A stretch of DNA of 64,000 nt. Origin: Bacteroidaceae bacterium (lineage in GTDB: Bacteria; Bacteroidota; Bacteroidia; Bacteroidales; Bacteroidaceae). The notes under the pieces were generated by a model, which was not told the origin of the DNA, searched no databases, and was given only the letters and a program-made list of their open reading frames with translations. Positions 469 through 58,641 of the stretch are shown one piece after another; within the stretch, counting starts at the first letter, position 1; each line of letters opens with the position of its first letter. Position numbers and translations under genes: made by a program. The stretch is from NCBI GenBank assembly GCA_024398435.1, contig JAKSJD010000001.1, positions 1 through 64,000 on the forward strand. Reading direction: 5' to 3'.

Positions 469-600
469 TATTCCTTGCTAAACAACGCGATATTCCTTGC
501 TAAACAACGCGATATTCCTTGCTAAACAACGCGAGGTTTCTTGCTAAAGAACGTGATGTTTCTTGCTAAAGAACGCGATGTTTCTTGCTAAAGAACGCGA
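469..600. repeat. Tandem repeat, six units of exactly 22 bp
   Basis: Units start at 469, 491, 513, 535, 557 and 579 with no insertion or deletion. The first three carry TTCCTTGCTAAACAACGCGA; the last three have TTTCTTGCTAAAGAACG instead. The array lies between the end of the ompA-type gene (726) and the tRNA promoter and is not a multiple of three, so it is not coding. Its two half-motifs recur separately in the other 22-bp arrays of this window (see 22877, 35841, 35951). Confidence 0.95.
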
Positions 601-671
601 TGATATTTGGATCCAATACTCTAATGAATAATATTAATATTTGAGAACACCGAGTATTATATAAAATTAAA

Positions 672-697
672 GAGGGTGCTGCGTGAGCAACACCCTC
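672..697 (-). terminator. Rho-independent terminator of the OmpA-family gene
   Basis: An 11-bp stem with one G-T pair (GAGGGTGTTGC / GCAGCACCCTC) and a four-base loop, followed on the minus strand by TTTAATTTTATA. It lies about 30 bases after the stop codon at 726. Confidence 0.85.
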
Positions 698-725
698 ATA
701 ATTATTTATCAAATTAATGTAATTA

Positions 726-1913
726 TTACTTTAATTCAACAACTGCGCGACGGTTCAAGATGTATGGAGATACTTCGTTGATACCACCAACTGCCTTAAC
801 TTCGATGTTGTCAGCGTTTACACCAAGGCGAACGAGTTCGTCCTTAGCTGCGTTAGCACGACCTTCAGAAAGCTTCTGGTTCCAAGCTGAAGAACCAGTC
901 TGGCTATCTGCAGAACCTGTAACGACTACCTTAGCACCTGTTTCCTTAGCAACTGCAGCAACTGCTTCGAGGTTGATGAGATCCTTCTTTGAGTTGATTG
1001 TAGTTGAGTTGAGGTCGAAGAATACAGATGTAGCAGCAGCAGCAACTACCTTTTCAACCTTTGCAGGCTGTGCAGCAGCTGGCTTTGGCTGCTTAGCGAG
1101 TTCAGCGCGGAGGCGAGCGTTTTCAGCACGTTCCTTGTCGAGTTCAGCGCGGAGCTTTGCAAGAGCTTCTTCACTTGCAGCAGCGAGTGCGTTGTAAGCG
1201 TCAAGTGTAACGGCCTTCTGCCATGTGTTGTCACCGAGGTTGAACTGGAGACCGAGTTCAGCAGTTACGTAAGTGTTACACATTGCGTTGTCGTTGTCTC
1301 TTACCTGGAGGTAGCGACCCCAGTGCTGAGTAGTTACGTTGTAAGCAACGTCGAGGTAAAGACCTACAACCTTACCAAGCTTCCAAGTGTTTTCGATACC
1401 ACCACCAAGAACTGGAGTGTAAGCGTTAGCATCAAATACGCGAGTGAAACCAGCGCGAGGATAAACGATGAAGTTCCATACGCGGCTTTCGTTGTAACCA
1501 CAGAACAAGTTGCTGAGGTTGAACTGAACGTCACCATAGATAGCTCCGAAATCAGCGCCTTCACCAACACCGTCAAAGTTTGCTGTCCAAGATGGATGGC
1601 AAGCACAAGCGTGCTGATCAAGAATACCATTTTCCCACTGTGCCTTCAAACGAAGTCCGAGGCCTGGAGTGAACCACTTACCTACTGCGAGGTCTACACC
1701 GAAAGACTTACCCTGGTGGAATACGTTGTCTGACAACTTCTTTGCACCGTAAGGAGCAGAAAGAGTCATGTCAGCACCTACCTGTACGTACCAGTTTGAC
1801 CAGAATGAGTTGGTAGCAACACAGTACTTAGATGGAGTTTCAATTTGAGTGGTCTGAGCGTTAGCTGCAGTACCGAGACCGACAAATGCCAGTGCGATCA
1901 AAATCTTTTTCAT
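726..1913 (-). CDS. OmpA-family outer membrane protein with coiled coil
   Basis: A 395-residue outer membrane protein expected to tie the outer membrane to peptidoglycan. Residues 1-19 are a signal peptide ending in NANA-like AANA before Q20. Residues about 20-235 have the alternating pattern of a beta-barrel. Residues about 243-277 are a charged coiled coil rich in AEL/RAE heptads. Residues about 290-395 are an OmpA C-terminal domain with NQKLSEGRANAAKDEL and NRRAVVEL. The gene is monocistronic, with a promoter about 200 nt upstream and its own terminator, which suits an abundant protein. A related gene lies at 50005-51186. The family call is firm; whether it is a general porin or mainly structural is not visible. 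Confidence 0.9.
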   Translation of the reverse strand: MKKILIALAFVGLGTAANAQTTQIETPSKYCVATNSFWSNWYVQVGADMTLSAPYGAKKLSDNVFHQGKSFGVDLAVGKWFTPGLGLRLKAQWENGILDQHACACHPSWTANFDGVGEGADFGAIYGDVQFNLSNLFCGYNESRVWNFIVYPRAGFTRVFDANAYTPVLGGGIENTWKLGKVVGLYLDVAYNVTTQHWGRYLQVRDNDNAMCNTYVTAELGLQFNLGDNTWQKAVTLDAYNALAAASEEALAKLRAELDKERAENARLRAELAKQPKPAAAQPAKVEKVVAAAATSVFFDLNSTTINSKKDLINLEAVAAVAKETGAKVVVTGSADSQTGSSAWNQKLSEGRANAAKDELVRLGVNADNIEVKAVGGINEVSPYILNRRAVVELK

Positions 1914-2121
1914 AAATACTTTTTTTTAAAATTTTAAAAAATGATAAATAATTTAACTATTACTTTTTGTTTCCTTGTTTATCTACACACACTCGACATG
2001 CTGTTACACATTATCTTATATATATAGAGAGCCGTGATTTTCAGTCTGTTTAACTGCCGAAAGACACCTATTAACTAATAGTTTTGCCTTTGGCACGGAC
2101 ATAATTTTCACTTTTCGAGGG

Positions 2122-2150
2122 CAAAATTAATATTTTTTGTTTACAAACAA
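2122..2150 (-). promoter_or_regulatory. Promoter of the OmpA-family gene
   Basis: -7 box TAATTTTG (2122-2129) and -33 TTG (2148-2150), spacer 18, on the minus strand. This predicts a leader of about 200 nt before the ATG at 1913. The leader (1914-2115) is AT-rich near the start codon and includes a stretch near 2050-2070 resembling the CGGCAGTTAA motif of the repeat cluster at 23180. Confidence 0.55.
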
Positions 2151-2256
2151 ACACTTTTTCTAAAAAAAATTAATGTTTTTTTACATTTTCTGCGTTTTAT
2201 ACCCATTTTGTAAAGTCGAGTTATACAATTGGGGCATTTTTTTGTCTATTTAATGT

Positions 2257-4056
2257 TCATTTGAATTGCTTGTCAATAGTTGTATTGTCAACAACCACAT
2301 AAACCACCATTCCATCTGGAGTAAATTTCGGAGTTGACAAGTCGAAAAGTCGCTCCAAAAGCAACTTAATTTCCTCATCCGACAATACCTGGCCATAAAC
2401 AATTGCTGCAGCACGAGCCATTGTCAGTGCAATTGCCTTGTGTACCTTTTCCTTCACACTACTTCCGGTTTCCATTGCAGATGCCACTAAATCGTGGAGC
2501 AGTTTGATTGGATTGACACCTTCGATACCGGAAGGAACTCCAGTAATCGAGTATGAGCCGCCTCCAAGATTCGTAAGTTCAAAACCTATGCTCTCCAAAT
2601 CTGCTTGAATGTCTTCCAACGTAAGAGTTTCCTGTTTCGTAAACTGGGCAATCTCAGGAAAGAGTGTTCCTTGAGACACGCCTTGTTGTTGGAAGAGGTT
2701 CTCCATGTATTGTTCAAACAAAACCCGGACATGCGCTCTATGCTGATCGATCAACATAATACCAGAAGGAGTCGGTTTCACTATATACCTTCCTTTGTAT
2801 TGGAAATGAGGAGTCGAAAGATCCGGTTTCTCCACTTGTGGATTCTCATTCCATAGAGTTTGCTGAAGCGGTTCTTTTTGTTTTACAATGTTATCAACAT
2901 ACAACGACTCCCAGCCTTCAACATTAGGCTGACGATTTGACGAAGAACTCCTAAATGGATTATAATCAGTCGACACAGCCTTAGGAGGTTGCGGAATGTC
3001 TGTTAAAAGTCCCGGTACCGGAATATCTGGTTTGTCCTGAGTATCGAAATCAATTGTTGGTACATTGCTATATTTTCCAAGAGCTTCTCTTACCGTGGCA
3101 GTTAAAACCTGCCAAATAGGCTGTTCGTTGTCGAACTTGATTTCCGTCTTTGTTGGATGTACATTGACATCAATAGTAGAAGGCTCAACTGAAAGATATA
3201 TGAAATAAGAAACATGCTCACCTACAGGAATCAAGTCCTCATATGCATGCATAACAGCACTATGGAAATAAGGATGGCGCATGTATCTACCATTCACAAA
3301 GAAATATTGATGTGATCCTCTCCTTTTTGAAGTTTCTGGCTTTGCCACATAACCAGTAATTGTGACCAAAGAAGTTTCCACCTCAATCGGAAGTATGTCT
3401 GGATTGATTTTCTTGCCAAACACATCTACTATTCGCTGCCGCAATGAAGCTTGAGGCAACTTGTACATCTCAACCCCATTATTATACAGTTCAAAATGAA
3501 CTTCTGGATGAGTCAATACTATTCTCTCAAAATCTGCCGCCACATTAGAAAGTTCAGTTTGGTTCGATTTGAGGAACTTTCTTCTTGCAGGCACATTGAA
3601 AAACAGATTGTTAACTGAGAAGTTACTGCCAACCGGACAAGCTATTGGTTCTTCCTGTTCCACTTTCGAACCTGAAATACGAATGAATGTACCAAGTTCG
3701 TCTTCTGGGCGACGGGTCTTCAGCTCAACTTGTGCTACTGCAGCAATAGATGCAAGAGCCTCACCTCGGAAACCCATAGTCGTAAGTGCGAACAAATCCG
3801 AAGCTTTAATTATCTTAGATGTAGCATGACGCTCAAAGGCCAAACGGGCATCAGTTTCCGACATACCTTTTCCATCGTCAATGACTTGCACACTTGTACG
3901 TCCTCCATCTATGACAAGTACCTGGATAAGAGTTGCACCAGCATCAAGTGAGTTCTCAACAAGTTCCTTCACTATTGATGCAGGTCGTTGTACGACTTCT
4001 CCCGCAGCTATTTGATTAGCTACCGAATCTGGCAAAAGATGAATAATATCCTCCAT
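2257..4056 (-). CDS. mutL: DNA mismatch repair protein MutL
   Basis: 599 residues. MutL couples mismatch recognition by MutS to strand removal. The N-terminal GHKL ATPase is complete: [12 protein letters not shown] (catalytic Glu about residue 31), DDGKGM near 62 and [12 protein letters not shown] near 95, then the S5-like domain with NGRYMRHP and [12 protein letters not shown]. The C-terminal dimerisation domain covers about 415-599. The usual endonuclease motif DQHAxxExxxxE reads [12 protein letters not shown], so the first metal-binding Glu is Val, and the distal CPHGRP motif reads TPDGMV. It therefore probably lacks latent nicking activity. It is the last gene of the run that starts at 8857, and its ATG follows the preceding stop by one base. 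Confidence 0.97.
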
Positions 4057-4057
4057 A

Positions 4058-4351
4058 TTAGAATACCTGTCCTGTCCATAACCACTTAGCCAGGAATATC
4101 AAGCCAATTATAAGCATTATGATGACTCCGGCATGAAGAGGTTTCTTTCCACTTTCTTTCCTACGTTTCAAATGAGTAGTTGCTCCGACAAATTTTCCCC
4201 TGATGTCCTCTGGGTCGAATTCTTTTGGAGGCAAAAGTCCCAATTCGCGTTTTGCATTCTCGCGAATCTTTTCCAGTTTTTCCTTTCGTGGGTCATAATA
4301 AATATAATTATGCTGGAATCCACGAGGTTTGTTTACACTGAACATTCCCAT
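4058..4351 (-). CDS. Small single-pass membrane protein, Bacteroidota-type, unknown function
   Basis: 97 residues. The N-terminal two thirds are charged and basic ([20 protein letters not shown], later [12 protein letters not shown]). Residues about 72-92 form one hydrophobic helix ([19 protein letters not shown]). No signal peptide, so the charged part is probably cytoplasmic. A second ATG at codon 3 could be the true start. It lies between the OstA-like gene and mutL, with 30 bases to the former and one base to the latter, so it is translated from the same mRNA. I do not recognise a known function; the position suggests an accessory role in envelope assembly, which is inference only. Confidence 0.75.
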
Positions 4352-4381
4352 ATCGAATCGTTTGAATTTAGCGTCAAGTTA

Positions 4382-6034: not shown

Positions 6035-6060
6035 GCACTTTTACTCCTTCCTCTATATAT

Positions 6061-7434
6061 TTATTCCTTCACCCAACCTGGATACTGGAATTCACAATTA
6101 CGCCAGTCTTCATTGATTCGGATGTATGTAGTTTTCTGCTTTTCTTTAATCCACTCTTCAATCTTATCACCATTGAGTTTGTCAATCATGACATTCTGGA
6201 GTTCCTCATAGTCATCAGCCATAGTTGCTCTATGCCCGTTTATACGATTTTTGAGTTTGGCAACTGCAACCACTTCCTTTCCTTGTGTATTCATCATAAG
6301 GAAAGGTTTTGACATTTCACCTACTGCAAGTCCCGATACTGCGCGTGACACTTCAGTTGGCAACTCTTTAAGTTCCATTCTTGAACGGGTTTCCATCGTC
6401 ATCGGATTCTTATAAACCATCAAGCCGTGGTTGTTTCTTGTGTCTTTGTCATCTGAAAGGTATGGTACGCACTCCTCGAAAGTATAATCACCATTCTTTA
6501 TTTCTGCACATACAGAGTCGAGGAAGTTTATGCATGTTTCAATAGCTTCGTCCGAAACCCTTGGTTTACGAAGAATATGTCGAACGTTTATCTTGTCACC
6601 ACGTTTATCAATAAGTTGGATGATATGGAATCCGTATTCCGTTTCGACGATCTTACTCACTGTCTTTGGATCCGTAAGACTGAAAGCCACATTTGCAAAT
6701 TCAGGAACATAATCTCCCCTACTTGCATATCCCAGTTCTCCACCTTTCGATGAAGAAGGGTCTTCACTGTACAATGCAGCAAGAGACGAGAACTGCATCT
6801 GTCCAGAGTTTATTCTCTCTGTGTAGCTGCGCAAATCATCCTTTACTTTATCGATTTCTTCCTGTGTTACAATTGGTTGGCGAACGAAGATTTCGACTTC
6901 GACTCTTGTTGGCACATAAGGTAAGCTATCCTCTGGCATCGACTTGAAATAATTTCTTACTTGTGCTGGAGTTACCTTTGTACCGGTAATCATGTTGCGC
7001 TGCACCTCTTGTGTCAAGAGTTTGCTACGTTCTGAATCGAAGAGAAGTTCTCGGATTTGCGTCTGTGTTTTGCCGAAAGCCATCTCCATTCGTTCTATAG
7101 AGCCAAACTGGTTGTCGATGAATTCCTCTATACGAGCATCTACTGCCTCAAACACTTCGGCATCAGTCACTTCGATTGAGTCCAAAGCTGCTTGATGCAA
7201 GAAGAGTTTCTGAACTGCCAACTGTTCTGGAATAACACAATATGGGTCACCTGGAAGTCGCTGACCTGCTGCTTGATAGTCTTGACGAAGATTCTCAACA
7301 TCTGATTTGTAGATAGCTTCATCACCAACCACCCAAATTACCTCATCTATTACATTGTTTTTTGATTGCGCCATTACATTTGCCACTGGCATAATGGCGG
7401 TCAATGCTATTATTGTGATATTCCTTATATTCAT
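6061..7434 (-). CDS. Periplasmic peptidylprolyl isomerase, SurA type
   Basis: 457 residues with signal peptide (cleavage after NVMA). The N-terminal chaperone region (about 25-165) contains the SurA-like VIDEVIWVVGDEAIYKSDVE and ends before a parvulin domain at about 170-290, recognisable from LAALYSEDPSSSKGGELG, GDYVPEFANVAFSL and ETEYGFHIIQLIDKRG. A second, degenerate parvulin-like segment follows (INVRHILRKPRVSDEAI). The protein should escort outer-membrane proteins. It starts four bases after the stop of the preceding isomerase gene. Confidence 0.9.
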   Translation of the reverse strand: MNIRNITIIALTAIMPVANVMAQSKNNVIDEVIWVVGDEAIYKSDVENLRQDYQAAGQRLPGDPYCVIPEQLAVQKLFLHQAALDSIEVTDAEVFEAVDARIEEFIDNQFGSIERMEMAFGKTQTQIRELLFDSERSKLLTQEVQRNMITGTKVTPAQVRNYFKSMPEDSLPYVPTRVEVEIFVRQPIVTQEEIDKVKDDLRSYTERINSGQMQFSSLAALYSEDPSSSKGGELGYASRGDYVPEFANVAFSLTDPKTVSKIVETEYGFHIIQLIDKRGDKINVRHILRKPRVSDEAIETCINFLDSVCAEIKNGDYTFEECVPYLSDDKDTRNNHGLMVYKNPMTMETRSRMELKELPTEVSRAVSGLAVGEMSKPFLMMNTQGKEVVAVAKLKNRINGHRATMADDYEELQNVMIDKLNGDKIEEWIKEKQKTTYIRINEDWRNCEFQYPGWVKE

Positions 7435-7438
7435 CTGA

Positions 7439-8857: not shown

Positions 8858-8926
8858 TTATTTATTAATTATTTACAATGTACAATAATATTGCTCCATT
8901 TACTGACAGCCATTAGTTTGCACACA

Positions 8927-10870: not shown

Positions 10871-10947
10871 GACTAGCAAGAAATGACCCAAAACATTGCT
10901 AAACAAAGCCTCTCGAACAGCTAAACATCAGGTCGCGAACAGCTAAG
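10871..10947. repeat. Short repeat array stepping in 22 bp
   Basis: Units begin at 10871, 10893 and 10915, with a partial one at 10937. Motifs are GCAAGAAATGACCC, ATTGCTAAACAAAGC and GAACAGCTAAACATC. The unit sequences are only loosely alike but keep the 22-base step. It sits directly after the recQ terminator. Confidence 0.7.
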
Positions 10948-18592: not shown

Positions 18593-18650
18593 TACTAAAA
18601 CACCGACTTTTTTTTAATATTTACATCATAAACACAACAAACTCATAAAA

Positions 18651-18716
18651 ACATTATAAGAAACGACCCAAAACATTATAAGAAATTGGGGCAAACATTA
18701 TAATACTTTTTTCGCA
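18651..18716. repeat. Repeat array, three units of 22 bp
   Basis: Units at 18651, 18673 and 18695, each beginning ACATTATA. The first two read ACATTATAAGAAA followed by CGACCC or TTGGGG. The reverse complement of this motif (CTTATAATGTTT) is the core of the array at 23070-23179. It lies between the tig terminator and the promoter of the next gene. Confidence 0.85.
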
Positions 18717-22868: not shown

Positions 22869-22876
22869 CTTCCAAA

Positions 22877-22986
22877 AACATCGCGCTTCGTGAAGCAAAA
22901 CATCGCGCTTCGTGAAGCAAAACATCGCGCTTCGTGAGGTCAAACACCGCGCTTCGAAGGGGCTTGAAGCGCGCTTCGTGATGCAA
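22877..22986. repeat. Tandem repeat, five units of 22 bp
   Basis: Units at 22877, 22899, 22921, 22943 and 22965. The first two are identical and contain AACATCGCGCTTCGTGAAGC; later ones vary outside CGCGCTTCG. GCTTC-GT-GAAGC inside the unit is a small inverted repeat. The array starts eight bases after the lptB stop. It is the left edge of a gene-free stretch (22869-23724). Confidence 0.95.
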
Positions 22987-23011
22987 TTCCTATAGGTTCA
23001 CTGCCAAATTT

Positions 23012-23069
23012 CTTGGACAAGCCAAGCGACAAGTCGATAACTTGGATGAACCAAGCGACAAGTCGATAT
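23012..23069. repeat. Direct repeat, two units of 29 bp
   Basis: Two copies (23012-23040 and 23041-23069) of CTTGG-x5-CCAAGCGACAAGTCGATA. The CCAAG/CTTGG parts are complementary and could pair across units. It leads directly into the 22-bp array at 23070. Confidence 0.85.
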
Positions 23070-23289
23070 CTTATAATGTTTAGCTTCATTCCTTATGGTT
23101 CGTGAGGCATTTTCTTATAAGACTTGACCCCATTCCTTATAATGTTTCAGCCCTTTCCTTATAATGTTTTTCTGCATTAGCAGTTAAGTGTTCGGCAGTT
23201 TTGCGCTTGGTAGTTCTGCGTCAGCAGTTAAGTGTACGGCAGTTTTGCGCTTGGTAGTTCTGCGTCAGCAGTTAAGTGTTCGGCTGTTC
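23070..23289. repeat. Ten consecutive 22-bp units from two sequence families
   Basis: Units start every 22 bases from 23070 to 23268 without a single indel. Units one to five are built on CTTATAATGTTT or CTTATAAGACTTG. Units six, eight and ten share GCAGTTAAGTGTTCGGC; units seven and nine are identical and start TGCGCTTGGTAG. The last five therefore form a 44-bp higher-order repeat. Relatives of GTTTAGTGTTCG also occur at 23624 and 23691. Confidence 0.9.
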
Positions 23290-23328
23290 TGCTGCCGAAA
23301 AAAAAGAGTTTTGCTATTTTTGGCTTTT

Positions 23329-23585
23329 CCTTCAGTTTTATGAGATAACACCCTATAACACAACACCTTACAGGCTGAAGGCTGAGTCTAAAACCTTCAG
23401 TTTTCCTTCAGCCTTCCTTCAGTTTCCTTCAGCCAAAACGGTTTCGTTGCCTGCATGAATAGTAGAGGGGAAACCATACAAATCCTGAAGGTGGCTGAAG
23501 GTAGCTGAAGGTAGCTGAAGGTAAATAGATTTACCTTCAGCTTATACCACCCTGATTATCACCCACTTACAAGCAAAACTGAAGG
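23329..23585. repeat. Cluster of twelve CTGAAGG/CCTTCAG heptamers with helical phasing
   Basis: CCTTCAG occurs at 23329, 23394, 23405, 23416, 23426 and 23534; CTGAAGG at 23375, 23485, 23495, 23505, 23515 and 23579. Four forward copies are spaced 11, 11 and 10 bases and four inverted copies 10, 10 and 10 bases, so each set sits on one face of the helix. The two sets face each other around an AT-rich centre of about 50 bases and could also pair as RNA. Confidence 0.85.
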
Positions 23586-23724: not shown

Positions 23725-26028
23725 TTATTTAATCAGCACCTTCTTGCCATTAACTATATAGACACCTTGCTTCAATGTTGACAAATCGATGTTTGAATCG
23801 CGACTGATCAATCTGCCTTGCATATCATATACTCCTTGAATTGTTCGTTCAGGAACTGCATCAACCGTGATTTCTTCGATTCCGTCAGTGTAAGGAGTCT
23901 TAAATGTGACTGTTTCACCATAAACTGTTTTGCTTGATGTCTTCACATATGCTCGGACATTGTATGAAGTATTATATTTCAAACCTTCCAGCGTTACAGT
24001 CATCAACTGTCCCGTTGCACTCACTCGCTTTGGCTCTGCACTAGAACCAACTTCGCTATATTCAAAGCCCTGTTCGTCCAAGTCATCCGTACCTGCAACT
24101 GCATATCCTCTTACCTTCACACTGTTGCTTGTCTGTGCTGATGCCATTGCGTATGTATGAACTGTTGGTTCAAAGTAAGAAAAATCGCTTGGGTCGAAAC
24201 CTACCCATTCGCCATAGTACTTCTTTCCTTCTCGTGATTCATAATAAGCACGAACCTTATAATAACTATCTGTTTGCAGATTCATTATCTTTCCTTCCAT
24301 TCGGCCATTATATATTACAGCACCACCAGATTTTGAAGGAATCTCTTCTGGAGCATCTATCTTTCTCCATTCAAAACCTACAGAAACCTCATCATCAGGA
24401 ATGTTAGTTGTAGCTGCAACTACTGCACTTTTACTGTTTACGACTTTCGGAGTTTCTGTTTTCAGTGTCAAGCTATATGTATCTACATAAGTGCTACCTC
24501 CTTCGTAATCATCCTTTCCTGTTCCATAATACACTCTATACGGGATATAATATGATGAGTTGGGTGTAAGATTTGTCAATCGCAAAGCTCCTCCAGTTAC
24601 ATATTCGCTTGTAATCGGATTCCACACTTCAGTTTTAACAACTTTAGCGTCCTCTTCCAGATAAGAAACTGAGGATATTATGATTTGAGTTGGATTTGAT
24701 TCATAATTAAGGTTTGGCAACAAACTCTTGGTTGTAAATGAAACATTATTAGATTGATAAATAAGTGTTCCATTACAATAAACTTTACAAGGGCTAGAAT
24801 AAGACTTATTAGGCTTACCTTTTACAATTATTATACCATCAGGTTCATCTGCCTCAGAATCATTAATCTTCACCTTTATTCCTGCACTTGAAGTAAATAT
24901 TGTGTTTGTTTTAAATTTAGCATACATCTGGCCGACTTCCAATCGCTTACATTCAAACACTTTGCAGCCATCAAACGCATGAGAGCCAACCTCCTGGATA
25001 TTTGCAGACATTTCTATTGATTTCAATCCAGAACAATTATTAAATGCATAATCTTTTATGCTAGTCAGGGAATTAGGGATTATTATTGAAGTCAAACCGC
25101 CACAACTACCAAATGCATATTTACCAATGCTAGTGACAGAATTAGGAATTGAGATTGATGTCAAACCACTACAACCAGAGAATGTATAATCTTCAATACT
25201 TGACACAGAATTTGAAATGGAAACAGTTGTCAAACTTCTGCAATTCTCAAAGGCATTAGAGCCAATGTCAGTTACTGAATTAGGTATTTCTATTGAAGTC
25301 AAGCTACTACAACCAAAGAATGCTCGTTCTCCTATGTTCGTCACAGAATTTGGTATATTTATTGAAACTAAGCTACTGCAGCCATTAAAGCCATCTATGC
25401 TGGCGATATCATTTCCTAATATTACAGTTTTAAGTTTATCTCTACAATACTGAATGAGACAAGTTGGAGAAATATTCGAATTCCAACACAATGTTTCTGT
25501 GCCCCCACAACCAAAGAAAGCATTTTCCTCTATAATGGTAACAGAATTCGGTATCGTAATTGAGGTCAAGCCACTACAACCAGAGAAGGCGGAGGGTCCT
25601 ATGCTAGTAACGTTATCAGGTATCAAAACAGATGTTAAGTCTGTGCAACCAGAGAAGGCGAAGGGTCCTATGCTCGTTACAGAATTAGGCATAGTGATTG
25701 AAGCCAAATCACTGCAACAATAAAATGCATAACCGCCAATGTTAGTAACAGAATTTGGAATAGTTATAGATTTCAAATTGCGGCATTTATCAAATGCTAC
25801 TAATCCAATGCTGTCTACAGGTCCCTCAAATTTAATGATTCCTTTCCCATTTGAGTATTCGTTCGAAACAATATTTACTCCAAACGCAGAAGTGACTGCC
25901 GGCTTAACTATTGCTCCATTTGTACTTGTATACCAAATTTCATTATTTGGAATTTCGTCCGCCATTGCTACTGAACCTATCACAGCCCAAAAGCTAATTA
26001 AAGTAACTATTTTAATTGTTCTTTTCAT
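23725..26028 (-). CDS. BspA-like leucine-rich repeat surface protein with T9SS sorting domain
   Basis: About 767 residues from the ATG at 26028, whose MKRTIK start matches the next paralogue; an ATG four codons upstream is weaker. Signal peptide to AMA. Then about a dozen 23-residue LRR_5 repeats (pattern [19 protein letters not shown]) to about residue 365. Residues about 430-690 hold beta-sandwich repeats with a FN3-like look (YKVRAYYES, YNVRAYVKTSSKTVYGETV). The C-terminal 50 residues (IQGVYDMQGRL..., LKQGVYIVNGKKVLIK) match a type IX secretion sorting domain. Expected at the cell surface, binding host or substrate. It lies next to a paralogue upstream. Confidence 0.85.
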   Translation of the reverse strand: MKRTIKIVTLISFWAVIGSVAMADEIPNNEIWYTSTNGAIVKPAVTSAFGVNIVSNEYSNGKGIIKFEGPVDSIGLVAFDKCRNLKSITIPNSVTNIGGYAFYCCSDLASITMPNSVTSIGPFAFSGCTDLTSVLIPDNVTSIGPSAFSGCSGLTSITIPNSVTIIEENAFFGCGGTETLCWNSNISPTCLIQYCRDKLKTVILGNDIASIDGFNGCSSLVSINIPNSVTNIGERAFFGCSSLTSIEIPNSVTDIGSNAFENCRSLTTVSISNSVSSIEDYTFSGCSGLTSISIPNSVTSIGKYAFGSCGGLTSIIIPNSLTSIKDYAFNNCSGLKSIEMSANIQEVGSHAFDGCKVFECKRLEVGQMYAKFKTNTIFTSSAGIKVKINDSEADEPDGIIIVKGKPNKSYSSPCKVYCNGTLIYQSNNVSFTTKSLLPNLNYESNPTQIIISSVSYLEEDAKVVKTEVWNPITSEYVTGGALRLTNLTPNSSYYIPYRVYYGTGKDDYEGGSTYVDTYSLTLKTETPKVVNSKSAVVAATTNIPDDEVSVGFEWRKIDAPEEIPSKSGGAVIYNGRMEGKIMNLQTDSYYKVRAYYESREGKKYYGEWVGFDPSDFSYFEPTVHTYAMASAQTSNSVKVRGYAVAGTDDLDEQGFEYSEVGSSAEPKRVSATGQLMTVTLEGLKYNTSYNVRAYVKTSSKTVYGETVTFKTPYTDGIEEITVDAVPERTIQGVYDMQGRLISRDSNIDLSTLKQGVYIVNGKKVLIK

Positions 26029-26043
26029 ATATAGATTCATATT

Positions 26044-27261
26044 TTAATGCGAAAGTATAAAGTTATAAATCATCATGGCATCTGTAGCATTGACTTTTCC
26101 GTCACCATTGACGTCACATTGTTTCAGTTCTTTCTCGTATTGGGATTCCTCTGAACTGACCTCTTCAATATTCATAAAATCAATCCATACCGGAGCCACC
26201 ATATACATTGTTGAAGTACCTTGTGGGACATACAATGTACAAGCATTTTTATCAACACGCGCAAACACGTCACTCGGTACTGACAATGGTCTCTTCCAAT
26301 TAACTGTTATCGAAGTTAAGCCGCTACAACCATCGAATGCATAAATTCCTATGCTTGTCACAGAATTCGGAATCTCTATTGAAATTAAGCTATTGCAACC
26401 TGAAAACGCATAATTACCTATGCTTGTTACGGAATTTGGTATCATTATTGAGGTTAAACCGCTACAACTAGAGAAGGCATTATCTCCTATGCTCGTGACA
26501 GAAGTTGGAATCTCTATTGACATCACACTGCGGCAATCAAAGAATGTCCAATTTCCAATACTGGTGACGGAATTTGGTATGTTAATTGAAGCCAAAATAC
26601 TGCAACCAGAGAATGCACTACTGCCTATGCTTGTTACAGAAGAAGGTATTGTAATTGATGCCAAACTGCTGCAACCTGAGAATGCACTACTGCCTATGCT
26701 TGTTACAGAAGAAGGTATTGTAATTGATGTCAAACCACTGCAACCATTGAATGTATAAGTTTCTATGCTTGTAACAGAATTTGGTATTTCAATTGATTTC
26801 AAACTACTGCATCTGGAAAATGCAGAATTTCCAATACTTACTACTGAATTCGGAATCTCTATTGAGGTCATACCACAGCAATCACTAAATGCCCTAGATC
26901 CAATGCTGATGACGGTATTCGGAATCTCTATTGAGGACAAACTACAGCAGCCTGAAAACGCATAACTTCCTATACTTGTTACGGAATTTGGAATTTCGAT
27001 CGATGTTAAACTAATACAACAATAGAAAGCAGTTTTGCCTATGCTTGTCACTGTTCCATCAAATATAATGATTCCTTTCCCATTGGAATATGTATTAGAG
27101 ACGATATCTGCACCATAAACACCTCTATCATATGGTTCTACAACATTTCCATCAGTACTTGTATACCAAATCTCATTGTTTGGAATTTCTTCAGCGTAAA
27201 TACTATTGCCTAACAAACATAATAGGCACAATAAAATTGTTTGTTGAATAGTTCTTTTCAT
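26044..27261 (-). CDS. BspA-like leucine-rich repeat protein with dockerin-like tail
   Basis: 405 residues. Signal peptide ending SIYA. The N-terminal module [19 protein letters not shown] and the string of about 11 LRR_5 repeats ([19 protein letters not shown]) closely match the neighbouring gene, indicating a duplication. After the repeats comes a short linker and one calcium-loop motif [12 protein letters not shown] followed by [10 protein letters not shown], half of a type I dockerin pair. Such tails are common in this order; a real cellulosome is not implied. It lies 17 bases after the DUF2971 gene and 15 before the next BspA gene, so the three may share a transcript. Confidence 0.83.
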
Positions 27262-35042: not shown

Positions 35043-35504
35043 TTATTTCAGTGAGTTAATATCGATTTCTTTTGGTTGCTGAGCCTGCTGCTTGTGCTCT
35101 GCACCTTCGTAGATGTAGAGGTTGTCGAGCAACTGAGTTCCGAGATGGCCCTTTGTGAGCATACCCTTTACTGCATGGCGAAGGATTCTTTCATATCCGT
35201 GAGGACGCTTTGCCATTTCAGCTGGGCTTGCCTTGTGCTGGCCGCCTGGATAACCTGAATAAGTGAGATACTGCTTGGCAGTCCACTTCTGACCTGAGAA
35301 CTTTACCTTGCTTGCGTTGATGATAATTACGTTGTCGCCGCAATCCATGTTTGGAGTGAAGCATGGCTTGTACTTACCGCGCAAGATCTTTGCTACTTTT
35401 GAGCTTAAACGACCTACTGTCTGGTCGGTTGCATCTACAACGACCCACTGCTTGTTAGCTTCTTCTGTTGTTACGAAGCGGGTCTTGGCACTTAATGTAT
35501 TCAT
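35043..35504 (-). CDS. rplM: Ribosomal protein uL13
   Basis: 153 residues from MNTLSAKTRFVTTEEANKQW; the frame is open upstream but that part lies in the leader. Conserved WVVVDATDQTVGRLSSKVA, KYKPCFTPNMDCGDNVIIINA and AEMAKRPHGYERILRHAVKGMLTKG. First gene of the rplM-rpsI-rpsB-tsf operon. The C-terminal end (EHKQQAQQPKEIDI) is longer than in E. coli (142 residues). Confidence 0.97.
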   Translation of the reverse strand: MNTLSAKTRFVTTEEANKQWVVVDATDQTVGRLSSKVAKILRGKYKPCFTPNMDCGDNVIIINASKVKFSGQKWTAKQYLTYSGYPGGQHKASPAEMAKRPHGYERILRHAVKGMLTKGHLGTQLLDNLYIYEGAEHKQQAQQPKEIDINSLK

Positions 35505-35690
35505 TTTTCTTTGTTTAGTTATAACCATAATAATACACTCCCTATCTGTCGCTCCCTGCTCTCTGGAGAGCTGGAGTTTCAGCGGAGATGTTGTTTGTTT
35601 CGAGCGATTCACAGACCACATTGCCGGCCAAAGCTAATGCTATCTACACGCTGCTAAGGAGGTTCATCTTATGCCTCCTTGATAATAATC
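35505..35690 (-). promoter_or_regulatory. Structured leader of the rplM operon
   Basis: A leader of about 185 nt is expected from the promoter at 35697. Near its 5' end AAGGAGG (35674-35680) can pair with CCTCCTT (35656-35662). The same AAGGAGG stands six bases before an ATG (35665-35667) that opens a seven-codon frame MNLLSSV ending at 35644. Further down, GCTCTC-CA-GAGAGC with flanking CTCC/GGAG forms a second hairpin (about 35558-35582). This could be an autoregulatory L13 site; that is inference. Confidence 0.5.
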
Positions 35691-35726: not shown

Positions 35727-35840
35727 ACATTTTTTCATCTTTTTTCGTCTTCGAATCAATATTATTTGACTTTACCGGCTGAAAATCCCACTTCGGAATA
35801 CAATGTTGCTTTCAATTTGTCATTTGTGGCCGAAGAAAAA

Positions 35841-36038
35841 AACAACGCGTTTCGCGACTCAAAACAACGCGTTTCGAAGGGTAAAACTTCGCGTTCCTCT
35901 GCCTCAAACTTCGCGCTTCGTAACCATCGAAAAAAGTATTGCAAGAAATGAGGTCATTTCTTGCTAAACTCAGGGTCATTTCTTGCTAAACTCGGCCCTA
36001 TTTCTTGCTAAACTTTTTCAGGCACATTGCTAACTCTT
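35841..36038. repeat. Nine consecutive 22-bp units between divergent operons
   Basis: Units start every 22 bases from 35841 to 36017. Units one and two contain AACAACGCGTTTCG, three and four AACTTCGCG, five GCAAGAAATG, and six to eight (T)CATTTCTTGCTAAAC; unit nine keeps ACATTGCTAA. So both half-motifs of the array at 469 appear here as separate units in one unbroken frame. It lies between the rplM promoter (minus) and the yicC promoter (plus). Confidence 0.92.
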
Positions 36039-44477: not shown

Positions 44478-44574
44478 AAAAGTAAAATTATGTACATTGC
44501 GGTTAATAATTATGTCAATATTATTAATAATTATGCACATGATTAATATTAATTATGTACAATATTTTACTTTT
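44478..44574. repeat. Long inverted repeat in the intergenic gap
   Basis: Arms 44478-44495 and 44557-44574 match at 16 of 18 positions (AAAAGTAAAAT ... GTAC). The 61-base centre contains three partly repeated TTAATAATTATG-like stretches. The surrounding 44188-44854 gap is AT-rich and otherwise holds only the two divergent promoters. Function unknown: regulator site, RNA hairpin or decayed mobile element are all possible. Confidence 0.6.
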
Positions 44575-44821
44575 ACATCCAAAGAAAACATAAAATACAT
44601 CAAGAAAAATCAGGTTTTTCTTCAAGGCTTCGGAAATTAGTTATTCTTGCTTACTGTCTTTTCTTGCTTTTCCCATATACAATTATCTCAAAGATAAAAA
44701 AACTCAAAAACAATCTGCCTCGGAACGGAAATATACACCAATAATCATGGCAATTCTAAAAAAATATCATAAAATGATAAAAAAAGTTAATAAGTATGAT
44801 ACTTCGTATTGAAAAAAATAT

Positions 44822-51186: not shown

Positions 51187-51220
51187 CTTTTTATTTTCTC
51201 ATTTACGTTAAAAACGGGTG

Positions 51221-51250
51221 CAAAGGTACGAATAATTTGAGAAACAGCAA
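51221..51250 (-). promoter_or_regulatory. Promoter of the second OmpA-family gene
   Basis: -7 box TACCTTTG (51221-51228), -33 TTG (51248-51250), spacer 19. Confidence 0.66.
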
Positions 51251-51394
51251 TCATTATTGATGAATTTTAGACAAATCTTCCGTTCTTGGCGACAGATATT
51301 CCACTTATCAAATCCATGTTGATACAATGCAATGAAACGAAGCCGACATTCATTCATTTTGCTTCTCCAGAGAATTTCTATTGTTCCATTCAGA

Positions 51395-51456
51395 ATACGA
51401 TCATTATCGTATGGCCATACGATAATGATCGTATAGGCTTACGAACATGATCGTAT
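51395..51456. promoter_or_regulatory. Nested 40-bp perfect palindrome, operator-like
   Basis: 51395-51434 is a perfect 40-base palindrome around GGCC. Each half is itself a dyad ATACGAT-n4-ATCGTAT, so the heptamer appears four times in alternating orientation, and a further ATGATCGTAT stands at 51447-51456. This looks like two adjacent 18-bp sites for a dimeric regulator plus a half site. It lies about 145 bases upstream of the ompA promoter and just after the peptidase terminator. It has no U-run, so it is not a simple terminator. Confidence 0.6.
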
Positions 51457-51464
51457 AAACAAAA

Positions 51465-51496
51465 CACCTATAGACTTTTTCGGAAGCCTATAGGTG
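51465..51496 (-). terminator. Terminator of the dipeptidyl peptidase gene
   Basis: Nine-pair stem CACCTATAG / CTATAGGTG with a 14-base loop, followed on the minus strand by TTTTGTTTA. Confidence 0.85.
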
Positions 51497-51525
51497 CCCT
51501 ATATATAATATATAAATATGTGTGG

Positions 51526-53718: not shown

Positions 53719-53735
53719 ATCTAAAATATTTTTAT

Positions 53736-53743
53736 TACTTTTG
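53736..53743 (+). promoter_or_regulatory. -7 box of the DUF4230 pair
   Basis: TACTTTTG, 30 bases before the ATG at 53774. A minus-strand TAAATTTG at 53748-53755 overlaps this space and may serve the divergent peptidase gene. Confidence 0.4.
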
Positions 53744-53773
53744 CCCACAAATTTAATGAATTAACTTCAAACA

Positions 53774-54370: not shown

Positions 54371-54397
54371 AGCAATCAAAACAAGAGGAATATCATC

Positions 54398-55027: not shown

Positions 55028-55041
55028 GCCAGCAATTCTTG

Positions 55042-55917
55042 CTATAAATGTTTCCTCACTTTCTCCACGAACTCATAATTCTTCAATCCCCAACCGGGAA
55101 CAGCAAGAAGTGATGCAGGCGATTGGCTCACAAAGCGTTCGAAGATGAGATCCGAACGTGAATGGCGAATGAAATCAACTATAAGATCAACATATTCATC
55201 GGCCGTCATTCGAAGGAAATCTTCCGGACATTCGGCAAATTCCTCAGCCATTCGAGTGCCTTTTATCAGTTGGAGCTGATGGAGTTTTATAGTAGTCAAA
55301 GGTAGTTCGGAAAGGATTTCTGCTTCTCGCAAAATATCGTCCTTGGTTTCGCCTGGCAAACCAAGAATGACATGACCGCCAACAGGCAATCCTCTTTGAG
55401 CCGTTTTCATTATTGCCTCGGCCGTTGTAAGGAAATCATGACCTCGGTTTATTCGGGTCAAAGTACGGTCGAAAACACTCTCAATTCCATATTCTACAAG
55501 GATAAACGTACGCTTTGAAAGTTCTTGCAGATAGTCGAGCAAAGCATCATTGACACAATCAGGACGAGTGGCAATCACAAGTCCTACAACATCTTCTACC
55601 CCAAGTGCTTCTTCATACTTTTCCTTCAATTCATCAATGCCAGCATACGTATTAGTATATGCCTGAAAATAAGCGAGATACTTCATATCCGGATACTTCT
55701 TGCTAAAGAATTGCTTGCCTTCCTCCAATTGCTGTGAAATGGATTTTTCAGTACGACAATATTCGGGATTGAAGGTCTGATTATTGCAATAAGTGCAACC
55801 ACCAACACCTACTCTTCCGTCTCTGTTTGGACATGTAAAACCCGCATTGATTGAAATCTTCTGTGCCTTACATCCCAACTGTTGAGTCAGCCATGTTCCG
55901 AAATCCTTGTATTCCAT
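55042..55917 (-). CDS. Radical SAM protein, YhcC/TIGR01212 type
   Basis: 291 residues. The N-terminus has NAGFTCPNRDGRVGVGGCTYCNN, the unusual wide-spaced iron-sulfur cysteine pattern of this family, followed by YFQAYTNTYAGIDELKEKYEEAL and GLVIATRPDCVND. The middle and end carry EYGIESVFDRTLTRINRGHD and GGHVILGLPGETKDDI. Substrate unknown; relatives include predicted tRNA or rRNA modifiers. Single gene. Confidence 0.88.
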   Translation of the reverse strand: MEYKDFGTWLTQQLGCKAQKISINAGFTCPNRDGRVGVGGCTYCNNQTFNPEYCRTEKSISQQLEEGKQFFSKKYPDMKYLAYFQAYTNTYAGIDELKEKYEEALGVEDVVGLVIATRPDCVNDALLDYLQELSKRTFILVEYGIESVFDRTLTRINRGHDFLTTAEAIMKTAQRGLPVGGHVILGLPGETKDDILREAEILSELPLTTIKLHQLQLIKGTRMAEEFAECPEDFLRMTADEYVDLIVDFIRHSRSDLIFERFVSQSPASLLAVPGWGLKNYEFVEKVRKHL

Positions 55918-55935
55918 ATTTTTCGCATTTTAGTG

Positions 55936-55943
55936 CAAAGGTA
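55936..55943 (-). promoter_or_regulatory. -7 box of the radical SAM gene
   Basis: TACCTTTG, 18 bases before the ATG at 55917; no TTG at the ideal distance. Confidence 0.48.
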
Positions 55944-56027
55944 CAAAATAATGCAGAAAGCATGGTAACGGAAGATGTTTTTTGTAATTTTTTTTCATTT
56001 CCGCATTCTGTTTTCGGTATTTTTTTG

Positions 56028-56035
56028 TATCTTTG
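56028..56035 (+). promoter_or_regulatory. -7 box of the GH9 gene
   Basis: TATCTTTG, 28 bases before the ATG at 56064; no clear TTG upstream. Confidence 0.48.
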
Positions 56036-56063
56036 TAGTCACTAATCAAATTACAAGAATATC

Positions 56064-57719
56064 ATGCACGCAGAAAAGAAATTCGCTTTCATAATCTCAC
56101 TCATTCTCCTGTCAATTCCAATGATTGGACATTGTGCAGAAGTTCCTGACATTGTCGTCAATTCCATCGGTTTCTACCCTAACGACCAGAAACAAGCAGT
56201 AGTTATAGGTCGACACGGAGGAGAAGAATTCAAGGTTGTAAATGCTACAAACGGGAAGACGGTTTTCACTGGCAAACTGTCTGATGCTCAATGGTGTGAA
56301 GATGTTAAACAAGACCTTTGTATAGCCGATTTCTCTGCCTTCAAGAAGAGTGGCCGATATAAGATTGTGGCAAACAATGGAAAGGAATCGTGCGAATTCA
56401 ATATCGGTAAAACCGTATATAAAGATGCCTACACAACTGCAATGCGGGCATTCTACCTTTGGAGATGCGGAATGGCTGTGGAAACCACATACAACGGGCA
56501 TCGTTATCAGACGACCGCGGCTTGCCACACAAAAGATGGCTACACCAAATATCTTGGAGAAGAGCAAGATTGGAGAGACGGAACCGGTGGTTGGCACGAT
56601 GCCGGCGACTATGGCAAATATACCGTAAATGCTGGAGTCACAGTGGGTGTCTTGTTTATGGCTTGGCAACATTTCCAGAAGCAGCTCAATTCCGTTGACC
56701 TCAATCTGCCCGAAACAGCAAAGGGATTTCCTGAGTTTCTTAAAGAGATAAAGTGGGAAACAGATTTCCTTCTGAAGATGCAATATGCCGATGGGAGCGG
56801 AAGAGTTTCGCACAAACTTACACGTACAGAATTCTCCGGCTTCATTATGCCGGAAACCGATGATGGCAAACGTTATTTCACTGAATGGAGTTCGGCTGCA
56901 ACAGCAGATTTTGCCGCAATGATGGCTATGGCTTCAAGGATTTTCGAACCTTATGACAAAGAGTATTCCGAACGTATTTTGAGTGCTGCCCGTCTCAGTT
57001 ATGATGCATTGAAAAAGTATGGAAGAAAGAACTTTATGCAGGGAGATTTCAGCACAGGCGGCTATCAAACAGGAGATGACGATGATATAGTGTGGGCGGC
57101 AGTTGAAATGTGGGAAGCAACTGGCGAACAGCAATACCTCACTGATGCCGAACAACGCCTCGGCAGTCAATGGAATCTCATCGATTCGAATTGGGATTGG
57201 GGAGATGTTTCCAATCTTGGTGCCTACACATATATATTATCTAACCGAGAAGGTAAGAATGCCGAACTCGAAAACAAGTTGAAGGCAGCAATGATAAAGG
57301 ATGCCAACCAGCTGGCTGACAATTCTTTAAGCGACCCATTTGGACGTGCTTTGAACCAGTATTATTGGGGTTGCAACGGAACCGTTTGCCGTCAAGCTCT
57401 CAACCTCCACATGGCAGACATTCTCGCTCCAAATGCAAAATATCAAACAGCAATCAAGAGAATTGCAGGTTATGTTCTCGGCAACAACATCTATGGTCGC
57501 TCATTTGTCACTGGAATTGGAGTGAATCCTCCGATGCATCCACATGACCGTCGTTCGGGTGCCGACGGAATTGATGACCCTTGGCCAGGTTACATTGTTG
57601 GCGGGGGACATTCAGCCACAGATTGGGTGGATGAGCAAGACGACTATTCACGCAATGAAATTGCCATCAATTGGCAGGCAGGTCTTGTATATCTGCTTTC
57701 AGCAGCTTTGGCAGAATAG
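56064..57719 (+). CDS. Glycoside hydrolase family 9 cellulase with N-terminal Ig-like domain
   Basis: 551 residues. Signal peptide to about residue 25. An immunoglobulin-like CelD_N domain (about 28-115) begins VPDIVVNSIGFYPNDQKQAVV. The catalytic alpha/alpha barrel follows, with the base motif GGWHDAGDYGKY (Asp179 and Asp182), the His motif NPPMHPHDRRSGADG and the acid Glu532 in DDYSRNEIAINW. All expected residues are present, so activity on beta-1,4-glucans is likely. No carbohydrate-binding module, dockerin or T9SS tail. Single gene with own promoter and terminator. Confidence 0.92.
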   Translation: MHAEKKFAFIISLILLSIPMIGHCAEVPDIVVNSIGFYPNDQKQAVVIGRHGGEEFKVVNATNGKTVFTGKLSDAQWCEDVKQDLCIADFSAFKKSGRYKIVANNGKESCEFNIGKTVYKDAYTTAMRAFYLWRCGMAVETTYNGHRYQTTAACHTKDGYTKYLGEEQDWRDGTGGWHDAGDYGKYTVNAGVTVGVLFMAWQHFQKQLNSVDLNLPETAKGFPEFLKEIKWETDFLLKMQYADGSGRVSHKLTRTEFSGFIMPETDDGKRYFTEWSSAATADFAAMMAMASRIFEPYDKEYSERILSAARLSYDALKKYGRKNFMQGDFSTGGYQTGDDDDIVWAAVEMWEATGEQQYLTDAEQRLGSQWNLIDSNWDWGDVSNLGAYTYILSNREGKNAELENKLKAAMIKDANQLADNSLSDPFGRALNQYYWGCNGTVCRQALNLHMADILAPNAKYQTAIKRIAGYVLGNNIYGRSFVTGIGVNPPMHPHDRRSGADGIDDPWPGYIVGGGHSATDWVDEQDDYSRNEIAINWQAGLVYLLSAALAE

Positions 57720-57750
57720 CAGACAAATAGCAACCAAAAATATGCAATTG

Positions 57751-57783
57751 GGCTTGTACTCTCGGGTGCAAGCCTATCTTTTT
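57751..57783 (+). terminator. Terminator of the GH9 gene
   Basis: Stem GGCTTG / CAAGCC with a 12-base loop, followed by TATCTTTTTG. It lies 32 bases after the stop. Confidence 0.75.
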
Positions 57784-57805
57784 GTTAATTATTATAAATA
57801 ATAAG

Positions 57806-57835
57806 TTGTAGATAAGGAATAATTTCGTATCTTTG
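57806..57835 (+). promoter_or_regulatory. Promoter of tsaB
   Basis: -33 TTG (57806-57808), spacer 19, -7 box TATCTTTG (57828-57835); ATG 20 bases further at 57856. Confidence 0.68.
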
Positions 57836-57855
57836 CAAAGTTAAATTGGATTATT

Positions 57856-58557
57856 ATGTCTTGTATACTACATATCGAAACATCAACCGACGTTTGTTCG
57901 GTGGCTGTAAGCCAAGATGGAGCCAATATATTCCACACTGAGGAGATGAATGGGCCTTCACATGCCCAAAAGTTGGGAAGCATGGTGGATGAAGCACTTT
58001 CATTCACCGACAATCACGCCATTCCGTTCGATGCAGTGGCCGTAAGCAGCGGTCCTGGAAGCTACACGGGATTGAGAATTGGAGTAAGCATGGCCAAAGG
58101 AGTTTGCTATGCTCGCAATCTCAAGCTCATTGCATTGCCAACTCTCCAAGTGATGTGCGTGCCAGTTTTGCTCCGAAACGAAGAATTGCCCGACGATGCG
58201 CTCCTCTGTCCTATGATTGATGCCCGCAGGATGGAAGTCTATACAGCACTTTACGACAGAGCCCTCCGCCCAATAATCGACCTTCAGGCATTGGTGGTTG
58301 ACGGACATTCGTTTGAAGAACAGCTTGCCGAGCATCCAATCTATTTCTTCGGAAATGGAGCAGATAAATGCAAGGAGACAATCACTCATCCAAATGCACA
58401 TTTCATTGCAGACATTAAGCCTCTCGCAAAATGGATGTCGCCACTTGCAGAGAAAGCACATGCAAGAGAGGAATTCGTGGATGTTGCATATTTCGAGCCA
58501 AACTACCTGAAAGAGTTCGTTGCCCTCAAGCCGAAAAACCCTTTCGCAAACATATAA
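57856..58557 (+). CDS. tsaB: tRNA threonylcarbamoyladenosine biosynthesis protein TsaB
   Basis: 233 residues. Partner of TsaD in making t6A37 of ANN-reading tRNAs. ASKHA fold start ILHIETSTDVCSVAVSQDG, then VAVSSGPGSYTGLRIGVSMAKGVCYA, the hallmark block, and DARRMEVYTALYD. Length normal. Separated from the DUF4290 gene by 135 bases that contain a 22-bp repeat set, so they may or may not be co-transcribed. Confidence 0.94.
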   Translation: MSCILHIETSTDVCSVAVSQDGANIFHTEEMNGPSHAQKLGSMVDEALSFTDNHAIPFDAVAVSSGPGSYTGLRIGVSMAKGVCYARNLKLIALPTLQVMCVPVLLRNEELPDDALLCPMIDARRMEVYTALYDRALRPIIDLQALVVDGHSFEEQLAEHPIYFFGNGADKCKETITHPNAHFIADIKPLAKWMSPLAEKAHAREEFVDVAYFEPNYLKEFVALKPKNPFANI

Positions 58558-58575
58558 AATACAAACGAAAAAAAA

Positions 58576-58641
58576 GAACGCGGTTCGAAGGCAAAAGTTT
58601 CGCAAGAAATGACCTTGAGTTTCGCGGTTCATTTTTCAAAG
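58576..58641. repeat. Repeat array, three units of 22 bp
   Basis: Units at 58576, 58598 and 58620: GAACGCGGTTCGAAGG, TTTCGCAAGAAATGACC and TTTCGCGGTTCATTTTTC. The middle one carries the AAGAAATGACC motif seen at 10871; the outer ones carry the CGCG-TTCG motif seen at 35841. Confidence 0.75.

Follow-up and report, generated by a model that had tools for sequence, protein, structure and literature searches.

Intergenic arrays of short units, stepping in 22 base pairs (bp), recur through the genome of a Bacteroidaceae bacterium (assembly GCA_024398435.1). We analysed them in positions 1 to 64,000 of contig JAKSJD010000001.1, hereafter the window, and in further parts of this and related genomes. 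Our reading, to which we give a probability of about two in three, is that each array forms a lattice of dyads to which protein binds. HU-HIG proteins (PF18291), in which an HU domain is joined to a winged helix or to an Ig or Gly-rich motif, would be the most likely readers. By binding, they would regulate their own genes and mark dispersed sites. The proposal draws on an excess of lag 22, a base-exact lattice, dyads that are conserved while spacers drift, arrays upstream of HU-HIG genes, and words partly shared between those promoters and dispersed arrays.

A 22 bp period between genes

The source genome comprises 2.3 Mb in 32 contigs and is 78% complete. Its proteins and an L13-Bacteroidia leader place it in the Bacteroidales. 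Our sample was the window plus 20 other stretches, together 452,819 bases or about a fifth of the genome. Exact self-matching runs of at least 10 bases were counted for each lag. Within the window, lag 22 was the strongest repeat period (15 runs, 275 bases). Fewer runs were found at lags 44 (nine), 69 (six), 66 (five), and 21 (four); those at lag 69 are probably period-69 repeats inside open reading frames (ORFs) at 25538-27051. An excess elsewhere in the genome, which the original prediction had proposed as a check, is present in the 20 other stretches. Here, lag 22 gave 53 runs, compared to 25 at lag 7 and 23 at lag 21. For window and stretches combined, across lags 10-60, there were 68 runs at lag 22, 31 at lag 44, 27 at lag 21, and at most 16 at any other.

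Using 33-base windows and 66% identity, we counted 44 lag-22 arrays in the 453 kb. None overlaps a predicted ORF. Gene context could be scored for 33 array loci: 14 are divergent, 13 tandem, and six convergent (these contexts make up 31, 58, and 11% of gap length). Spacing among dissimilar palindromes gave a weak signal. The original prediction would also have been refuted by a known RNA family at the arrays, and at gathering scores no Rfam family was found there; matches in the window are two tRNAs and an L13 leader.

Seven loci had been reported in the window, and all are present near the positions given for them. As described, they fall outside the likely genes, and the only ORF that the array at 58573 touches runs antisense to the TsaB gene. 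Two descriptions need correcting, since 23170-23292 is a 44-base repeat (2 x 22) and 10871-10947 is mixed. The list itself was incomplete, since two further 22-step arrays occur at 44482-44590 and 51388-51468. All are detailed in Table 1.

Class A half-sites form a base-exact lattice

The seven reported loci are built from one modular set of half-sites, here called class A. Six hexamers (AAACAT, GAGTTT, GCGAAC, ATTTCT, ATTCCT, and ACGAAG) are arranged with a 4 bp core on the inward side and a 6 bp spacer on the outward side. Distances between them were counted outside ORFs in the 453 kb. Inward-facing pairs peak at 10 (37 pairs) and 32 (28 pairs), outward-facing pairs at 12 (36) and 34 (23), and same-strand pairs at 22 (69) and 44 (49). 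Such peaks bear out the earlier observation that motifs are common to different loci and occur in both orientations. Each distance within 4 bases of a peak holds 0-3 pairs, and the lattice is thus exact to the base. The peaks were not seen in ORFs and, with 20 sets of shuffled hexamers, distance 10 held 0 or 1 pair. Note that the enrichment of these hexamers is circular, because they were picked from arrays; their geometry is not. Across the core, 11 unordered pair types occur and nine of these join different hexamers. The pair types look like a combinatorial half-site code.

Dyads are kept while spacers drift

Of 85 arrays, 27 are strongly dyadic, with a mean of at least five of seven pairs. 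Permuting columns 50 times gave a mean of 6.5 such arrays and a maximum of 11. For the 27, identity between neighbouring units is 0.71-0.79 at 0-6 bp from the dyad and 0.66 at 7 bp. Further out, it is 0.54, 0.48, and 0.50 at 8, 9, and 10 bp. Changes to paired positions are one-sided in 129 cases and compensatory in 14. Since the dyad is kept, the spacer drifts, and changes are one-sided, the pattern argues for DNA half-sites rather than a paired stem.

A separate lattice is found in a sister species, G012. Here, a dispersed non-coding element of about 270 bp (L176-L205) gave 91 matched pieces, with 40 candidates scored. Steps and substitutions were counted in the 30 best-matching copies. At the centre of the element are four GTGT|ACAC dyads, or six in a single copy, and GAGC|GCTC dyads flank them on both sides. 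Steps between dyads of the same type are 22 in 175 of 177 cases and 44 in the other two. Between types, the steps are 22 (37 cases), 23 (11), and 44 (nine). The 88 bp core has a mean divergence of 24%, corresponding to 192 parsimony substitutions, which increase away from the dyad. TGTACA is unchanged and 30 of 30 copies are ungapped in this core, where at most two mismatches per 8-base dyad were allowed. Copies have variable ends and variable unit number; some share a tail-like stretch, judged by eye. The two sides of the element carry dyad arrays of opposite orientation.

The step is constant among relatives while the words change

Before relatives were scanned, an all-N contig (L060) and four tiny contigs (L110, L111, L114, and L115) were removed, which took out G051 and G055. 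We then scanned 20 other genomes of the source's family (about 1 Mb). Excluding eight lag-22 arrays that overlap predicted ORFs, there are 38 such arrays outside ORFs, compared to 19 at lag 44, 13 at lag 11, and 12 at lag 16. Elsewhere in the order, eight genomes of other families (about 0.32 Mb) yielded one lag-22 array. Ten genomes from other orders of the class (0.36 Mb) yielded none. Three were counted in 100 kb of a relative, Prevotella sp. oral taxon 299 (NC_022111.1). Array words in relatives include AAGGTGTACACCTT, TTGAATCGATTCAA, GACCTAGGTC, AAACAATATTGTTT, and GTTTCCC-N4-GGGAAAC. Words vary between species and the 22 bp step is constant; one half-site of the source genome, ATGTTT, is also present in G012 and G023.

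Parabacteroides distasonis (50 kb) and a few relatives use a step of 23 instead, with some arrays at 21. Step-23 arrays in other Bacteroidales families are at 6636 and 29673 of L132 (P. distasonis), 8225 and 9627 of L112 (G054), and 153 of L103 (G038). Steps of intergenic repeats in G007 (L046-L049) are mostly multiples of 8.

Arrays lie upstream of many HU-HIG genes

Two candidate reader families were tried, RAYT first and HU-HIG second. HU-HIG genes are numerous in the source's family: 34 of 37 genomes have PF18291 matches at E of at most 1e-10, with up to 15 copies per genome. Outside the family, the figure is six of 24, with many copies in G047 (nine) and G059 (15). The source genome has 14 matches at E of at most 0.001, and we examined the upstream DNA of ten genes. 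The remaining four are weak matches, mostly to short HU-like frames, and neither of the two that we inspected has an array.

Genes were scored for an array, with a step of 20-24, at most 350 bp upstream. In the source genome, all ten HU-HIG genes have a 21- or 22-step array, compared to 40 of 323 ORFs (Fisher's test, 2.5e-9). For seven sister species, the counts are 17 of 24 HU-HIG genes and 15 of 298 ORFs (1.8e-14), where the species behind the ORF background overlap with, and are not identical to, those behind the HU-HIG count. Three other genera (G021, G024, and G018) gave five of 19 HU-HIG genes and one of 147 ORFs (6.5e-5). In G059, from another family, two of five HU-HIG genes have an array. 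Note that these are subsets of the genes found at E of at most 1e-10. For the sister species, examined and found genes number 8/13 (G010), 4/8 (G013), 2/7 (G006), 2/3 (G015 and G016), 3/3 (G012), and 3/4 (G005). Elsewhere, they number 4/6 (G024), 2/14 (G018), and 5/15 (G059), and for G021 13 ORFs were examined (14 of 15 matches).

A -7-like motif, TAnnTTTG, corresponding to the Bacteroidetes -7 element, is found at the start of 18 of 29 HU-HIG arrays. For 42 dispersed arrays, the equivalent numbers on the two sides are three and six; most dispersed arrays are not beside a promoter-like motif. The position of arrays upstream of HU-HIG genes suggests autoregulation.

All 22 HU-HIG proteins that we aligned match PF18291. 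Comparing the HU-HIG profile with PDB sequences gave 22 matches, to chains named HU, IHF, transcription factor 1 (TF1), or histone family protein; none is called HU-HIG. Proteins with the HU, IHF, and TF1 fold form dimers and bend DNA. Hence, the same would be expected of HU-HIG. A single-sequence structure prediction for the L227 protein had a mean predicted local distance difference test score (pLDDT) of 39, too poor for use. The family was reportedly named by Burroughs and others in 2017. We know of no tests of its function, and a search for the HU-HIG name, within the papers searchable here, found nothing relevant.

HU-HIG promoters and part of the dispersed arrays share words

Promoter words of the source-genome HU-HIG genes belong to family B (L226), D (L227), E (L232), C (L233), and G (L234). 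L228 and L230, whose proteins are 97% identical, both have the class A half-site ATTTCT at their promoters. L229 and L231 have words of their own, and the word of L225 is A-rich and of low complexity. For families B, C, D, E, and G, and part of A, the promoter word is also the word of dispersed arrays. Two examples involve the window: the words of the family B array recur upstream of L226, and the family C pattern has 30 matches at 21 places in the genome, one of which is the L233 promoter. By BLAST, 17 of the 44 arrays have a match among the ten HU-HIG promoters, compared to one of 44 when promoters are reversed; the 17 include two that are the L225 promoter itself and a 15-base match, L013_15885, that is probably of another family. 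One dispersed family in each of G018, G021, and G024 also recurs at an HU-HIG promoter.

Arrays are common to HU-HIG proteins that are 94-98% identical (three pairs) and partly so at 80% (one pair). Four paralog pairs in the source genome, with 53-66% identity, have unrelated arrays. One pair from G010 and G013, at 66% identity, has a common array. Two pairs, L229/L266 (1.00) and L232/L254 (0.60), were not used, these values being artefacts of alignment free of end gaps.

A model for HU-HIG lattices

We envisage that each unit has an inward-facing half-site on either side of a short core, together spanning about 16 bp, and then a free spacer of about 6 bp. HU-HIG dimers would bind every 22 bp, or two helical turns, and so lie almost in line along one face of the helix, touching their neighbours. 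Each paralog in the source genome would read its own word, with one shared only by the near-identical pair. Each HU-HIG gene would have its word in an array, in many cases shortly after a promoter-like motif, and so probably control itself. Lattices with the same word, in gaps between other genes, may act as architectural or regulatory marks. For class A, L228 and L230 would read ATTTCT and ATTCCT; other partners, perhaps in heterodimers, would read the remaining half-sites. HU-HIG may owe the ability to read sequence to its additional winged helix or tail. The original prediction had suggested, as one option, that a DNA-binding or architectural protein selects for the step, and conserved dyads, scarce indels, and private arrays linked to HU-HIG genes all support this.

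Operator arrays of autoregulated proteins, and the iterons of plasmids, place tandem sites at the binder's own gene with a spacing of about two helical turns. The arrays described here are similar, being tandem sites about two turns apart upstream of the gene for a putative binder. They differ in the number of paralogs, about ten in the one genome, of which nearly all have a separate word, and in that many arrays are dispersed (44 in the 453 kb sampled).

Several observations weigh against HU-HIG as the reader. First, assignment of words is incomplete: 27 of the 44 source-genome arrays, including most of class A, match no HU-HIG promoter by BLAST. Among HU-HIG promoters, only those of L228 and L230 have class A half-sites on the lattice, with three pairs each, and 15 of 323 ordinary ORFs have at least two. 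No HU-HIG reader is assigned to AAACAT, GAGTTT, GCGAAC, or ACGAAG, to most class A arrays, or to the G012 words; neither word type of the G012 element was seen upstream of the three HU-HIG genes examined in that genome. Second, the association with HU-HIG genes is uneven. Taking all species together, an upstream array is present at 34 of 59 HU-HIG genes. None was detected at 11 of 13 genes in G021, three of four in G024, four of eight in G010, two of three in G012, or at the single strong match in Prevotella sp. oral taxon 299 (0/1). G017 has six HU-HIG genes and no array in 66 kb. Third, the dyad threshold is reached by only 27 of 85 arrays, and protein identity correlates weakly with array similarity (rho 0.18, 276 pairs). 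In favour of HU-HIG, its copy number and array density correlate over 28 genomes (rho 0.62) and within the family (20 genomes; rho 0.43, p 0.058), although this comparison is confounded by kinship; G030 (5.8 kb) was left out.

A broader version of the model is tentative, and we rate it well below an even chance. Each genome of the clade may have several orthogonal HU-derived lattice systems, about nine in the present case. Their proteins would line up as dimers on private half-site words, in part as heterodimers with a combinatorial half-site code (class A), and would regulate themselves and package or insulate gene gaps. Words and proteins would co-evolve so rapidly that most words differ even among species within one genus, with 22 bp fixed by contact between dimers. 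If each HU-HIG paralog does have a word that it can read, their target sites could be listed in genomes by a simple lag-22 scan. Sequence-specific relatives of HU, with fast-changing specificity on a fixed geometry, would become directly testable. Part of the otherwise meaningless intergenic repeats in the family, and perhaps the BrickBuilt repeats described below, would also be explained.

Alternative explanations

One alternative is that the arrays are selfish minisatellites, or akin to miniature inverted-repeat transposable elements (MITEs). Copying itself would then make the 22-base unit and no host protein would be needed. We regard this as unlikely, although copying has a part in any account. 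Some arrays have identical adjacent units (for example, at 469-602 and 22875-22956 of the window). Homologous elements are dispersed, with variable unit number, in G012, and family C is likewise dispersed. A copying mechanism, also raised by the original prediction, is needed for these identical neighbours and dispersed copies, but alone it fails to account for the conservation pattern. Copying would wear dyads and spacers equally and allow indels, whereas dyads are kept, spacers drift, and steps are exact. Private arrays at HU-HIG genes are not predicted either.

Comparison of orthologous gaps, with one genome per species and large differences between the gaps, fits the behaviour of a mobile repeat. 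The source-genome array was found in no sister species, either in the gap 3' of recQ (fully matched in 15 species, with one gap cut by a contig end) or in the gap 3' of tig (13 species). In the latter set, the gaps of G013 and G014 yielded nothing because the frame search took another ORF, and that of G015 has a downstream repeat with, by eye, a 21-base step. Against mobility as a unit, the class A flank matches inspected are other short repeats, chiefly the K element (Table 1), with no common leader or tail. A scan of genome contigs for a class A double word gave four scattered, unrelated records, from a set that possibly does not include the source genome.

Porphyromonas gingivalis belongs to the same order as the source bacterium and has an element of the kind that selfish copying invokes. 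This element, BrickBuilt, is a tandem 23-nucleotide minisatellite within a MITE, with 19 dispersed intergenic copies (PMC4596501). In the sections of that paper covered here, units are described as gained or lost whole, with conserved and variable positions inside each; all copies belong to a single family of sequences, which has a leader, a tail, and terminal inverted repeats; and no specific protein reader is proposed (PMC4596501). BrickBuilt_14 adjoins PGN_0872, listed as a DNA-binding protein with PF00216 (PMC4596501, Table 1). Our arrays resemble BrickBuilt in being tandem, intergenic, and dispersed, with a unit of 22-23 nucleotides. They differ in having a step of 22 rather than 23, many unrelated words per genome, arrays before HU-HIG genes and, for class A, no common ends that we could see. 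Within the papers searchable here, BrickBuilt and a review of MITEs are the nearest published matter found.

A different dimeric regulator, such as a helix-turn-helix protein, might instead read the dyads, with HU-HIG genes merely being common targets. Many arrays have no HU-HIG partner, which suits this idea. However, a single common regulator should place one word on all HU-HIG genes. In the source genome, HU-HIG paralogs have different words and the near-identical pair shares one. We therefore consider another regulator improbable.

It is very doubtful that units act as RNA hairpins in transcripts. Some do fold: G012 elements have energies far below those of shuffled sequences (z of -8 to -18, five of five, both strands), two family B arrays have z of about -6 to -7, and six of 16 class A arrays have z below -3 on at least one strand. 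The other ten class A arrays are above -3 on both strands, and in most class A units the two half-sites do not complement each other. Together with the excess of one-sided over compensatory changes (129 versus 14), these fold scores led us to reject hairpins as the common denominator.

REP-type (repetitive extragenic palindromic) sequences mobilised by the Y1 transposase RAYT are scarcely credible here. REPs are palindromes found between genes that are particular to a species and vary together with a protein. Our arrays are likewise palindromic, dispersed, intergenic, and species-specific, but they differ by their strict 22 bp lattice. PF01797 has no match in the source genome contigs (78% complete) or in array-bearing G005, G018, G021, G023, G024, and G025. 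Most sampled genomes of other families have PF01797 matches and no 22-step arrays in the sampled stretches. REPs moved by RAYT were accordingly rejected.

Arrays and other repeats of the window

Table 1. Positions and content of repeat arrays and elements in the window
Feature	Position	Strand	Content
Class A lattice	469..602	.	About six units of 22; dyads ATTCCT-TGCT-AAACAA, AAAGAA-CGCG-ATGTTT
Class A mixed array	10871..10947	.	Half-sites AGAAAT, AAACAT, GCGAAC
Class A array	18649..18710	.	AAACAT-TATA-AGAAAT units; downstream of trigger factor gene
Class A array	22875..22990	.	AAACAT-CGCG-CTTCGT units; starts 6 bases past stop codon
K element	23003..23069	.	Dyads CTTGG-N5-CCAAG, CGAC-AA-GTCG; two copies, step 31
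Class A array	23070..23175	.	ATTCCT-TATA-ATGTTT type units, lag 22
44-base repeat (2 x 22)	23170..23292	.	2.8 copies; weaker 15-base period
Class A array	35839..35925	.	AAACAA-CGCG-TTTCGA type units
Class A array	35940..36016	.	ATTTCT-TGCT-AAACTC units
Family C element	44482..44590	+	AATTATGTACAT dyads, 21/22 steps
Family B array	51388..51468	.	ATACGATCATTATCGTAT dyads, step 22
Class A short mixed array	58573..58641	.	

The mixed array at 10871 sits just past a terminator-like hairpin 3' of recQ. The family C element is about 115 bp long and, in six of six sampled loci (window, L010, L011, L012, L019, and L027), lies 114-303 bp from a gene start. It is directed toward the neighbouring gene in five of the six. 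Neighbours include fasciclin, MATE, RsfS, and DsbD-like genes. The K element is dispersed in the source genome (L018, L013, L024, L025, L003, and L007) and adjoins class A arrays at several loci. It also occurs in another genus (G026; L030, L033, L035, and L037) with 80-89% identity. CCTTCAG/CTGAAGG repeats, with steps of 10-11 and 21, are found at 23394-23523 of the window and near arrays in L002 and L022. Heptad repeats in the source genome (G000) are CTATCTT and GGTTAGT (L020 19306; L025 339-490). The L13 leader matched by Rfam is the L13-Bacteroidia ribosomal protein leader (RF03127), at 35606-35678 on the minus strand, ahead of the ORF at 35043-35621.

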